A DNA stretch of 64,000 bases from Collinsella sp. BG-O-102. Lineage in GTDB: Bacteria > Actinomycetota > Coriobacteriia > Coriobacteriales > Coriobacteriaceae. Shown piece after piece: positions 19,874-26,450 of the stretch; the stretch's first letter is position 1, and each line of letters opens with the position of its first letter. The DNA is taken from positions 62,001 through 126,000 of the forward strand of contig NZ_JAMOKO010000002.1 in NCBI RefSeq assembly GCF_023656745.1. The letters run 5' to 3'. The position numbers and the translations under genes are program-made. Below the pieces are notes generated by a model that saw only the letters and a list, made by a program, of their open reading frames with translations, did no database searches and was not told the DNA's origin.

Positions 19874-19960
19874 CCCCCTCATAAGTTGCGGTGGAATAGT
19901 TCCTGTTCAAGGCCTTCAGCAGCAAAAACAGGAACTATTCCACCGCAACTTATGAGGGGG
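19874..19960. repeat. Palindromic repeat family 1, copy b, with perfect 34-bp arms
   Basis: A perfect inverted repeat. The left arm starts CCCCCTCATAAGTTGCGGTG and the right arm ends CACCGCAACTTATGAGGGGG, around a 19-base loop. It is the only copy with fully matched arms, suggesting recent origin or gene conversion. It lies just upstream of the GntR gene. Confidence 0.85.
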
Positions 19961-23158: not shown

Positions 23159-23175
23159 GAGCAAAGGTGGCTCAC

Positions 23176-24267
23176 ATGCAAACAAACCCTTTTAAGCCCA
23201 CAGCAGGTAAAACACCTCCCACGATTATCGGCCGCGAAGATGTACTTGAAGAATTCAGTGAAGGCCTCACCAACGGGCCTGGTGCCCCTGGGCGCCTAAT
23301 GCGCATAGCCGGCGTCCGTGGAACGGGCAAGACGGTCCTCCTTGACGAGTGCTCACGTTTGGCGCAAAGCCGTGGCTGGACGGTCATAAAAGAGGTCGCA
23401 ACCGAGGGACTTTGCCAGCGCATTCTCGAACAGCTGCAGCCCAAATTCCAGGCCAAACACGCCAGATTTGAGCCCACCGTAGCTGGCATATCCATCGGCA
23501 GCATAGATATTGAGCGAATCGGCCCATCGCTACGCGACGCCATGAGACAGACAATATCCAAGAATGGAAATGGCCTGCTCATCACTCTCGACGAGGTTCA
23601 AGACGCAGAGCTCGATGAGGTCCGAACGCTCTCCATTGCGATTCAGCAGGTTATCGGCGAAGACCTTGATATCGCCTTTGTTTTTGCTGGGCTGCCTTCG
23701 ATGATTGAAAGCATCATCAACGGAAAGACACTTACGTTTTTGCGCCGTGCCCTCCCCTTTGATCTGAAGGCTGTGGCAGTAACCGAAGTGTCGTACTCCC
23801 TCGAGGAAACCATTGAAGCGTCTGGCATGGAGTTGCAGCCAGGTATTGCCGGCCAACTTGCCGAGGCAACGCAAGGCTATCCTTTCATGATCCAACTCGT
23901 TGGATACTACGCATGGCAGTTGGCAAGACGCGCGCACACAGCGATTATTGGAGAAGAAGAAGCCGAGCGTGGCATTGCAACGGCACGCGAACGCTTCTGC
24001 GCCATGGTGATTGAGCCCGCGCTGCAGCGCATTCCGCCCACGTGCATCGCTTATCTGCTGAGCATGGCGTCTTTGGGGCAGACGAGCTCGACCAGCATGG
24101 TTGCCGATGCCCTAAACAAAACGCCTCAACAGGTGAGCTCCGTCCGCAGCCGCCTGTTAAGAGAATCGATTATCGAGGCTCCTTCGTACGGCAAGGTCTC
24201 ATTTGCCATCCCCTACATGCGCGACTACCTCTACGAACACAAAGCCGAACTGGAAGTTGAACTGTAG
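23176..24267 (+). CDS. AAA-type ATP-binding protein with C-terminal winged helix
   Basis: 363-residue STAND/ORC-like ATPase. Walker A is GVRGTGKT near residue 50 and Walker B LLITLDEVQD near 138, followed by a sensor-like FVFAGLPSM. Hydrophobic LAEATQGYPFMIQLVGYYAWQLA resembles archaeal-type ATPase proteins. The last 90 residues read as a winged helix (YLLSMASLGQTSSTSMVADALNKTPQQVSSVRSRLL). The ATG at 23176 has AAAGGTGG 6 bases upstream; a GTG three codons earlier is less likely. No partner gene is adjacent. Function is unknown; members of this group can be defence, regulatory or mobile-element proteins. Confidence 0.75.
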   Translation: MQTNPFKPTAGKTPPTIIGREDVLEEFSEGLTNGPGAPGRLMRIAGVRGTGKTVLLDECSRLAQSRGWTVIKEVATEGLCQRILEQLQPKFQAKHARFEPTVAGISIGSIDIERIGPSLRDAMRQTISKNGNGLLITLDEVQDAELDEVRTLSIAIQQVIGEDLDIAFVFAGLPSMIESIINGKTLTFLRRALPFDLKAVAVTEVSYSLEETIEASGMELQPGIAGQLAEATQGYPFMIQLVGYYAWQLARRAHTAIIGEEEAERGIATARERFCAMVIEPALQRIPPTCIAYLLSMASLGQTSSTSMVADALNKTPQQVSSVRSRLLRESIIEAPSYGKVSFAIPYMRDYLYEHKAELEVEL

Positions 24268-24283
24268 AAACGGCAACTGCCCT

Positions 24284-24432
24284 GCAAGGTGAAAACCGTT
24301 TTCGTACGGATTTAAAGCAGACGTAAACGGTTTTCGTCTTGATTTGCGTCCGAAATTAAGACGTAAATTGCGCTTTCGTACGCTTATTACCAGACGCAAA
24401 TTGTTTTCGTCCGGCTATGCGTCCCCAATCTA
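24284..24432. repeat. Degenerate tandem CGTC/GACG repeats
   Basis: About four units of 33-40 bp, each with AGACGYAAA, a run like TTTTCGT and GCGTCC, pair locally (GACGTAAACGGTTTTCGTC type). There is no coding sense. They lead directly into the 96-bp inverted repeat. Confidence 0.55.
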
Positions 24433-24528
24433 GACGCAAAGAGCCCCGAGTTCATACTGAACTGCCTCCCATTTCTTGTGTCCAAGAAATGGGAGGCAGT
24501 TCAGTATGAACTCGGGGCTCTTTGCGTC
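24433..24528. repeat. Perfect 96-bp inverted repeat (46-bp arms, 4-base loop)
   Basis: The left arm begins GACGCAAAGAGCCCCGAGTT and ends CCATTTCTTG; the right arm is its exact complement, with TGTC between. It lies between the converging ATPase and dehydratase genes. There is no T-run, so it is more than a plain terminator. Perfect arms of this length imply recent formation or active upkeep. Confidence 0.95.
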
Positions 24529-24563
24529 ACGCATCTATGAGAGGGAATCGATGCGCCCGGGCG

Positions 24564-26342
24564 CTACTCCATGTAGCCACCCTGAATGGCGGAAACTGCA
24601 TGTTCGGTAAAGAACTTGAGCGTGCCGGAGGTATAGCGATTAGCCTTGGGCTTCCAAGCGGCTCGACGCTCGGCCAGGACGGCGTCGACCTCGGCCGGCT
24701 CCATCTTCTTGCCGGCGATGCCCACGATGGACAGCGAGCGCTCGGGAATGTTGATCTGGATCAGGTCGCCTTCCTCGATCAGGGCAATCGGGCCGCCCAC
24801 GGCAGCCTCGGGCGAAACGTGACCGATAGCCGGGCCCTTGGAGGCGCCGGAGAAGCGGCCATCGGTGATCAGGGCAATGCTCGCACCCAGCTCGGGATCG
24901 CTGGCGATAGCCTCAGTGGTGTAGAACATCTCGGGCATTCCGGAACCCTTGGGGCCCTCATAGCGAATGATAACGGCATCGCCGGGCTTGACCTCATGCG
25001 TCAGGACGGCGTGAATGGCGTCCTCCTCGCAGTCGAACGGACGGGCCTTGAGCGTAGCCTGGAACATCTCACGCGGAACGACGGTGTGCTTGACGACGGC
25101 ACCCTCGGGGGCAAGGTTGCCGTGAAGGATGGCGATGGAGCCATCGGTACCAAAAGCCTGGTCGAACGGACGGATGATGTCCTCGCGCTTGAGGTTCCAC
25201 TTCTCCAGGTAGCGGCCGCACTTCTCGTAGTAGCCGTTGTTCTTGAGGTCCTCGAGGTTCTCGCCGAGAGTCTTGCCGGTGACGGTCATGACGTCGAGAT
25301 GGAGCATCGACTTGATCTCCTCCATGATGCGCGGCACGCCGCCCGCATAATAGAAGAACTGCGCCGGCCACTCGCCTGCGGGACGAACGTTGAGCAGGTA
25401 GTGGGCGCCACGGTGCAGACGATCGAAGTCGTCGGCGGACATCTCGATGCCAAACTCACGGGCGATTGCGGGGATGTGCAGCAGGGAGTTGGTGGAACCA
25501 GAGATGGCGCCGTGGACCATGATGAGGTTCTCGAAGGATTCCTTGGTCACGATGTCACGCGGACACAGGTTGTGCTCGGAGAGCCACACGGACTGACGGC
25601 CGGCCTCGCGGGCGAACTCGCGCAGGTCGGAGCTGGTGGCGGGCAGCAGAGCCGTGCCGGGGAGCATAAGGCCCAGGGCCTCGGCGGTAACCTGCATGGT
25701 CGAGGCGGTGCCCATAAAGGAGCAGGCGCCGCAGCTGGGGCATGCGTTGTGCTTGGCAAACTCAAGCTCCTCGCGGGAGATCTCGCCGCGCTCGTAACGG
25801 GCAGAAATCGCGCCGAGCTGCTCCAGGGTCAACAGATCGGGACCGGCATCCATGACACCGCCGGTAACGACGATGGAGGGGATGTTGATGCGGCCCATGG
25901 CCATGAGGTTCGCAGGCAGGCCCTTATCGCAGCTGGCGACAAAGACGCCGGCATCGAACGGGGTGGCCTTGGCGTGGATCTCGATCATGTTGGCGATCAT
26001 GTCGCGGCTGGGCAGCGAGTAGTTGATGCCGTCGTGGCCCTGGGCCTCGCCGTCGCAGATATCGGTGCAGAAGTAACGGGCACCGTGACCGCCAGCCTCG
26101 GCAACGCCAGCGCGCACCTCCTCGACCAGCTCGAACAGGCCGGCAGAACCCGGGTGCGAATCGCCAAAGGTCGACTCGATGATGACCTGCGGCTTGTCCA
26201 GGTCCTCGATCGTCCAGCCGGAGCCCAGACGCAGCGGGTCCATCTCGGGGCTGATGGTGCGAAACTTGCCGGAACGCGGCTGCAGCTTGGCAACCAGGTC
26301 GGCGGCCTCCTGCTGAATCTGTGCCTTGGTTTTCTCGTCCAT
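24564..26342 (-). CDS. IlvD/Edd-family sugar-acid dehydratase
   Basis: 592-residue iron-sulfur dehydratase. Family motifs: CDGEAQGHDGINYSLPSRD, ASCDKGLPANLMAM, ACPSCGACSFMGTASTMQ, GSTNSLLHIPAIA, and the C-terminal TDGRFSGASKGPAIGHVSPEA. The conserved cysteines hold a [2Fe-2S] or [4Fe-4S] cluster. The family covers dihydroxy-acid, phosphogluconate and aldonate dehydratases. The neighbours (a GntP permease and a FadR-type regulator, and no other branched-chain amino acid genes) point to an aldonate such as gluconate or galactonate being dehydrated to KDG. Branched-chain synthesis remains possible. The ATG at 26342 has AGGAG 6 bases upstream. Confidence 0.85.
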   Translation of the reverse strand: MDEKTKAQIQQEAADLVAKLQPRSGKFRTISPEMDPLRLGSGWTIEDLDKPQVIIESTFGDSHPGSAGLFELVEEVRAGVAEAGGHGARYFCTDICDGEAQGHDGINYSLPSRDMIANMIEIHAKATPFDAGVFVASCDKGLPANLMAMGRINIPSIVVTGGVMDAGPDLLTLEQLGAISARYERGEISREELEFAKHNACPSCGACSFMGTASTMQVTAEALGLMLPGTALLPATSSDLREFAREAGRQSVWLSEHNLCPRDIVTKESFENLIMVHGAISGSTNSLLHIPAIAREFGIEMSADDFDRLHRGAHYLLNVRPAGEWPAQFFYYAGGVPRIMEEIKSMLHLDVMTVTGKTLGENLEDLKNNGYYEKCGRYLEKWNLKREDIIRPFDQAFGTDGSIAILHGNLAPEGAVVKHTVVPREMFQATLKARPFDCEEDAIHAVLTHEVKPGDAVIIRYEGPKGSGMPEMFYTTEAIASDPELGASIALITDGRFSGASKGPAIGHVSPEAAVGGPIALIEEGDLIQINIPERSLSIVGIAGKKMEPAEVDAVLAERRAAWKPKANRYTSGTLKFFTEHAVSAIQGGYME

Positions 26343-26450
26343 GATGTTCTCCTCTTTTGGTTTGAACGGTTGTACCAATCGTTGGTGAATAAATCTGGTG
26401 TAGGTGGCTGCCGAGCGATGTGCTCGGCAAAAGATGCTTAGCTACGCGAA

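Follow-up and report, generated by a model that had tools for sequence, protein, structure and literature searches.

A 96-bp perfect palindrome in a Collinsella genome is probably an IS3-family remnant nested in a resident terminator-like hairpin

The longest inverted repeat listed by an inverted-repeat scan of the window, a 64,000-nt stretch of the 2.27-Mb, 45-contig draft genome of Collinsella sp. BG-O-102, is a 96-bp palindrome that, judged against the corresponding sites of its relatives, is made of two layers. In the outer layer, 25 bp in each arm, lie the two halves of a resident hairpin; the inner layer, 46 bp long, is a remnant of an insertion sequence (IS) of the IS3 family. The best explanation of the palindrome as a whole, to which we assign a probability of about 0.78, is that the IS remnant lies in the loop of a resident terminator-like hairpin and that the arms were later made perfect. 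A sequence-only reading had described a perfect inverted repeat with 46-bp arms and a 4-base loop, and we confirmed this description: the arms are fully complementary (Table 1), and the RNA fold of positions 24433-24535 has an energy of -94.6 kcal/mol, where shuffles average -26.6 (z -20.9; 0 of 200 shuffles as stable). The DNA fold reaches -61.2 (z -19.8 against shuffles).

Table 1. The palindrome, its layers and its neighbouring genes, in positions of the window.
Feature	Position	Strand	Basis and remarks
AAA_16 ATPase gene	23167..24267	+	PF13191, 37.3 bits; stop 165 bp before the palindrome
Perfect palindrome	24433..24528		arms 24433-24478 and 24483-24528, 46 nt each, 100% complementary, 4 nt between
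Outer left arm, left half of resident hairpin	24433..24457	.	altered in host at 24437, 24451, 24454 and 24457
46-bp solo/miniature remnant of IS3-family element	24458..24503	-	0 mismatches to the solo pattern, minus strand
4-nt loop TGTC of perfect palindrome	24479..24482	.	inverted-repeat scan
Outer right arm, right half of resident hairpin	24504..24528	.	altered at 24525 and 24527; 17 relatives compared
ilvD (dihydroxy-acid dehydratase)	24564..26378	-	PF00920, 362.9 bits; PF24877, 204.9 bits; convergent, stop 35 bp past the palindrome

The palindrome sits between the stop codons of two convergent genes, which fits the earlier statement that it has no coding sense. The accompanying statement that it has no T-run is right by scan: a G+C-rich hairpin is present, as an intrinsic terminator would have, and a terminator scan (5-of-8-T rule) gave 0 terminator-like sites at it, the stem being left on both strands through ...CTCTTTG, where some relatives (e.g. 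L042) have longer T-runs. A second long palindrome of the window, at 19874-19960 (34-bp perfect arms, 19-nt loop), is a member of an abundant hairpin repeat dispersed in the host genome, with a unit of approximately AAGTTGCGGTGGAATAGTTCCTGTTT...AAACAGGAACTATTCCACCGCAACTT and 51 matches, both strands counted. On the 5' side of the 96-bp palindrome, positions 24320-24440 hold a run of short inverted motifs (GACGYAA, TTTCGTC and TTTGCGTC); the outermost arm bases of the palindrome now also match this motif, so that an ectopic template is conceivable.

The outer layer became apparent at the orthologous sites. In 11 relatives an insert-free version of this hairpin occupies the corresponding position, flanked by the 3' ends of the AAA-ATPase gene and ilvD. 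The counterpart of the left arm reads GACGAAAAGAGCCCCGAGCTC-GTAT or variants of it in 16 relatives, all four host changes in this arm pairing with the right arm, and the uninserted site of G008 carries GTATGAACTCGGGGCTCTTTGTGCC as the outer right arm. In four relatives (G024, G001, G004 and G033) a related IS end follows GTAT in this loop, and the right flank resumes only after about 5 or 14 kb; in a nucleotide search this extra DNA (~5 to 14 kb) showed no similarity to complete IS copies. Two others (G018 and G031) are rearranged at the orthologous site. Because of these related IS ends and rearrangements, the resident loop seems to have been hit more than once. No partly deleted IS, the expected intermediate, was seen at the orthologous site. 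We ruled out the whole 96 bp as a mobile element, since relatives carry resident sequence to which the outer arms align. In the relatives' loci L034, L035, L037 and L038 the same terminator loop holds some 5 to 14 kb of additional DNA; in L034, an integrase-like fragment, an MFS transporter, a CBS protein and an ArsC-like protein are among its contents.

The inner layer is identified by its likeness to the ends of an IS. On the minus strand, the core of the palindrome has the same 40 bases as the left end of the element with two changes (GACACAAG for GACATGAG), followed by AGTTCA, the last bases of the right end; the unit joins the left-end inverted repeat to the inverted copy that lies subterminally in the element, and it finishes like the right end. 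When the genus was searched with the site, matches were found in 33 of 43 genomes, many of which covered the 40 bases in the centre and frequently lay close to contig ends. In the host genome itself, two contigs, C11 and C44, open with one and the same 123-base sequence, which extends through the core and is a left end of the IS, and right ends lie on contigs C6 and C14; compared with a complete 1447-bp IS of the relative G024, the left end in the host is 100% identical over 123 bp and the right end 99.2% identical over 123 bp. The orfB of this IS type is represented in the host by two 27-residue pieces at contig ends only, the interior of the element being unassembled there, and the genome also has a different IS3-like protein (29% identity). 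A plain fusion of the left and right inverted repeats of the IS was ruled out, as the right repeats of complete copies (TGAACTGCGTCCCAAATCTTGG, TGAACTGCGCCCCAAAACTTGG) differ from the second half of the solo unit, which instead matches the left-end hairpin. It had been suggested earlier that the palindrome is a mobile element of REP or MITE type. The MITE-like origin holds for the inner 46 bp, which are IS3-family end sequence and occur as stand-alone units elsewhere, and fails for the outer arms, which belong to a resident hairpin that is uninserted in relatives, while a REP-like origin was not borne out, the palindrome being single-copy in its own genome. On the two other ideas of that reading, a double-stranded RNA source and a site kept by a cruciform-binding protein, the analysis turned up no evidence. 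As in a MITE, the terminal inverted repeats of the 46-bp unit are common to IS ends of the same genome, where the autonomy of the IS is putative; unlike the case of a MITE with multiple dispersed copies, this is the one solo unit there, and its flanks (ATAC/GTAT) form no target site duplication.

Complete copies of the parent IS in relatives mostly measure 1444-1455 bp, with one of 1340 bp in L090; in L080 the ends are paired 1480 bp apart, and this locus was left out of the set of copies used for target duplications. The element carries two ORFs, orfA of 163 aa and orfB of 270 aa, the latter in another frame than the former. The orfB product matches the IS3 transposase model NF033516 with 242.1 bits (cut-off 160), and also rve, rve_2 and HTH_21. 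Its DDE transposase with two ORFs and an IS3-type orfB, its TG..CA terminal inverted repeats (TGAACTGC...GCAGTTCA) and the 3-4 bp duplication place it, on sequence criteria, in the IS3 family. The left end is TGAACTGCCTCCCATTTCTTGGACATGAGAAATGGGAGGC, followed by TTTTTATG or TTTCTTTATG, and the right end is ...GCAGTTCA. According to the terminator scan the left end is terminator-like, GCCTCCCATTTCTTGGACATGAGAAATGGGAGGC-TTTTTATG forming 15 pairs followed by TTTTT directly before the start of orfA. Another subgroup of the IS, with a left end of ...ACATCGGGAAATGGGAGG, is present in L068, L069, L081, L082, L083 and L085, where it repeatedly lies next to a single conserved half-hairpin, CCACCACAAAGGTGCCTG; in the loci that show both ends, CCTTTGTGGTGG stands on the other side. 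A search of 42 genus genomes for a variant IS with TGAACTGTCTCCC ends, a candidate source of the L065 and L091 solos, returned only the solo itself, in one genome, and the viral collection contained 0 solo patterns and 0 copies of the window arm.

As judged from its full copies, this element inserts into hairpin loops. From 40 loci fetched, we recovered the left and right ends with 40-base flanks in 19 IS copies, 18 of them with non-identical flanks; the loci dropped were cut by contig ends, held solos only or were without a recognised right end. Exact target duplications flank 16 of the 18 full copies (15 of 3 bp and one of 4 bp, ATAC in L067), and none was found for the copies in L055 and L085. 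The ten-base junction arms are complementary at 8 or more positions in 14/18 copies, compared with 429 of 20000 random positions drawn from the same loci plus the window, and at 9 or more in 11/18, compared with 74 of 20000; the remaining four copies fall below the threshold of 8. The duplex energy of the flanks averages -26.0 kcal/mol in full copies and -14.2 when flanks are swapped (306 swaps), a conservative control, since a single repeated hairpin family supplied both flanks of some swapped pairs. Many of the flanks read as terminators (AAGCCCG...CGGGCTTTT). A first hairpin control was discarded, as 753 of 3000 random positions passed it, and the stricter ten-base arm score was used instead. 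Hairpin placement is clear for the full copies and only partial for the solos.

Solo units also occur in other genomes. With up to 3 mismatches allowed, the solo pattern matched in 12 of 65 family genomes, six of which hold solos (the host, G013, G015, G017, G022 and G037), while the other six matched only through IS left ends ending in TTTTTA. Within the genus, 6 of 43 genomes have a solo, at one site each. When the species collection was scanned for the exact pattern, 23 stretches turned up in 13 organisms, Atopobium sp. BS2 accounting for 11 of the stretches. The solos L091 and L108 are flanked by 3-bp duplications directly around the 46 bp. Among the sites outside Atopobium sp. BS2, a 3-bp duplication was found in 2/14 and a flank complementarity of at least 8 in 5/14, the window included, with four collection loci that duplicate other sites of the set counted once; many solos are therefore old, rearranged or outside hairpins. 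In Atopobium sp. BS2, a non-coding element of 462 bp, complete at positions 2032-2493 of L103, starts and finishes with a 46-bp palindrome and has AAG as its neighbour on either side. Partial copies of it lie at many contig ends, and many of the BS2 palindromes are ends of this element.

When the outer arms were compared with those of relatives (16 for the left, 17 for the right), six positions proved private to the window or rare. In the left arm these are 24437 (A>C; A in 16/16 relatives), 24451 (C>T; C in 16/16), 24454 (G>A; G in 15/16, A in one) and 24457 (T>C; T in 14/15, C in one), and in the right arm 24525 (T>C; T in 16/17, C in one) and 24527 (C>T; C in 17/17). All six turn a mismatch into a Watson-Crick pair, as in quasipalindrome correction, so that 6 mismatched pairs in 25 in the inferred previous state have become 0 in the window. 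Private and rare changes together are more frequent in the outer arms (6/50) than in the flanks (4/167, that is, 2 private and 2 rare changes in 167 columns; p = 0.011), whereas with private changes only the difference is not significant (3/50 against 2/167, p = 0.08). The pairing direction of the six changes is a stronger argument than this test of rates: the probability that six random substitutions would restore all pairs is 5.5e-9, a crude count for a site that was noticed because it is perfect. In the core, the 21-base arms have 2 mismatches each in the two other solos tested and 0 in the window, the only one of 26 solo-type sites where a perfect arm exceeds 21 bp.

The changes of the left arm lie inside and those of the right arm outside, with the switch between pairs 24436/24525 and 24437/24524. 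Since they run in two directions, two tracts or a repair event would be needed, not one simple switch. Three of the bases concerned (24454 A, 24457 C and 24525 C) each occur in one relative too, so that the changes need not all stem from a single event. The arms seem to have become a perfect match after the insertion, and the changes look like the mark left by template switching or by the repair of a hairpin. Hairpins made perfect by template switching are on record (PMC8794818).

We thus propose the following scenario. An IS3-family element that selects loops would have inserted into the loop of the resident bidirectional terminator-like hairpin between the convergent genes. The left end of this IS, an inverted repeat followed at once by its inverted copy and a T-run, makes a terminator-like hairpin before orfA, and this is the part that would have been left behind when almost all of the element was lost, probably by a deletion joining GGGAGGC of the left end to (G)CAGTTCA of the right end. 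The 46-bp palindromic solo remnant, nested in the old hairpin, would have produced a 96-bp quasi-palindrome, perfected either through a template switch at the fork or in the course of repairing the hairpin once extruded, with the left arm rewritten from the right one inside and the right from the left one at the outermost bases. Such a conversion of the arms may also be why no target duplication is left around the unit. The product probably still terminates both convergent transcripts.

SbcCD cuts long palindromes in E. coli. The SbcD model TIGR00619 gave no match in the host genome and none over the cut-off in 42 genus genomes (0/42, with two weak matches below it), while it was found in 13 of 14 known genomes used as a control, in a search with the SbcD model only that could miss a divergent nuclease. 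These results suggest that the genus is naturally without the SbcD palindrome nuclease, and the palindrome may be tolerated through the apparent lack of SbcCD in the host.

Several other explanations were weighed. The 46-bp unit could itself transpose, as a minimal MITE whose ends are both of the left type and which the IS transposase moves in trans; no full IS would then ever have been at the site. This is a variant of the preferred explanation, differing in the deletion step only, and we consider it possible but unlikely. The full inverted repeat at both ends of the unit, the duplications around the L091 and L108 solos and the 462-bp non-coding element of Atopobium sp. BS2 with its terminal palindromes and further partial copies all speak in its favour, but there is just one solo in each genus genome having any, and two DDE-transposase ends only 4-6 bp apart would be hard to synapse. 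A bolder and rather improbable view is that the IS transposase recognises extruded hairpins (cruciforms) and not sequence, the perfection of the arms being part of the process through gap repair, templated by the opposite arm, that follows an insertion into an extruded hairpin or a deletion inside one. If this were true, the IS family would grow perfect nested palindromes at the terminators of SbcCD-lacking gut Actinobacteria, and the 46-bp palindromic end would be the smallest mobile unit.

An assembly artefact is an unlikely source of the palindrome. It might be argued that the perfection, though not the insertion, arose in the assembly or library and that the true arms are imperfect, given that the sequence comes from the assembly alone, a draft of many contigs in which other copies of the IS are broken at contig ends. 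However, both distinct flanks continue correctly and align with relatives, where a fold-back chimera would be expected to run into an inverted flank, and the arms mix bases of both ancestral sides with a switch between them, so that we hold this to be very unlikely. We see an equally slim chance that selection for a stronger RNA hairpin, as a terminator or a 3' stability element, fixed compensatory mutations one by one. The hairpin does lie between convergent genes and is kept in relatives, but all six outer-arm changes restore pairing, which random substitution would hardly achieve, even on a crude estimate for a site picked for its perfection, and none of the others among the 26 solo-type sites shows such restored pairing. 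Finally, a REP/REPIN-like repeat, or a cruciform site kept by a binding protein, would agree with a palindromic and intergenic sequence but is scarcely credible for one that lacks the high copy number of REPs and REPINs and whose associated transposase is of the DDE IS3 type. The IS remnant in a resident hairpin, perfected later, remains the reading we prefer. It offers a route, traceable in two steps, by which a chromosome can acquire a very long perfect palindrome, and there are sites lacking the insert and sister units with unperfected arms to compare it with. The IS3-family group would use hairpins of differing sequence as landing pads and bring its own terminator-like hairpin, and landing in a loop with such a hairpin is a plausible way to insert cheaply for the host.

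Each part of this reading has known counterparts. MITEs and solo IS remnants are, like the 46-bp units, short non-autonomous elements derived from IS ends, and some of our units have target duplications; the unit differs from MITEs in being 46 bp long with almost no interior, each half resembling the IS left end, and the one in the window is single-copy and without duplication. Group IIC introns are mobile retroelements that use intrinsic-terminator hairpins as targets, inserting beside the hairpin and not in its loop, by a different chemistry; the terminator hairpin as a target is common to both, while chemistry and insertion position differ. IS1397 and ISKpn1, which belong to the IS3 family and are highly selective for palindromic intergenic DNA, the REP units (PMC1525189), are close to the host IS in both family and type of target. 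Their target, however, is a repeated REP sequence, whereas the IS described here targets hairpins of differing sequence, and its solo 46-bp remnants and terminator-like left end have no mention for IS1397 or ISKpn1 in the available part of that paper. The stem-loop-replacing transposition of IS1272 targets inverted repeats of different sequence and size (PMC5678879); it replaces the stem-loop and leaves no target duplication, whereas the present IS keeps and splits the hairpin, with 3- or 4-bp duplications in 16/18 copies. In quasipalindrome template-switch mutation, one arm of an imperfect hairpin is rewritten so that it matches the other perfectly (PMC8794818, PMC7202029, PMC8604942). The arms here differ in being 46 bp long and in stemming from the nesting of an IS remnant within a resident hairpin, and the tracts run in two directions. 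In the literature searched, partly available in excerpt, we recognised no description of an IS3 element targeting terminator loops or of 46-bp solo units, which is weak evidence of absence, and did not find the nested combination. A loop-seeking IS, an IS remnant and the perfection of arms are each of a known kind; what seems new here is their nested combination, an IS3 group that splits hairpins of differing sequence, and palindromic ends that stand alone.
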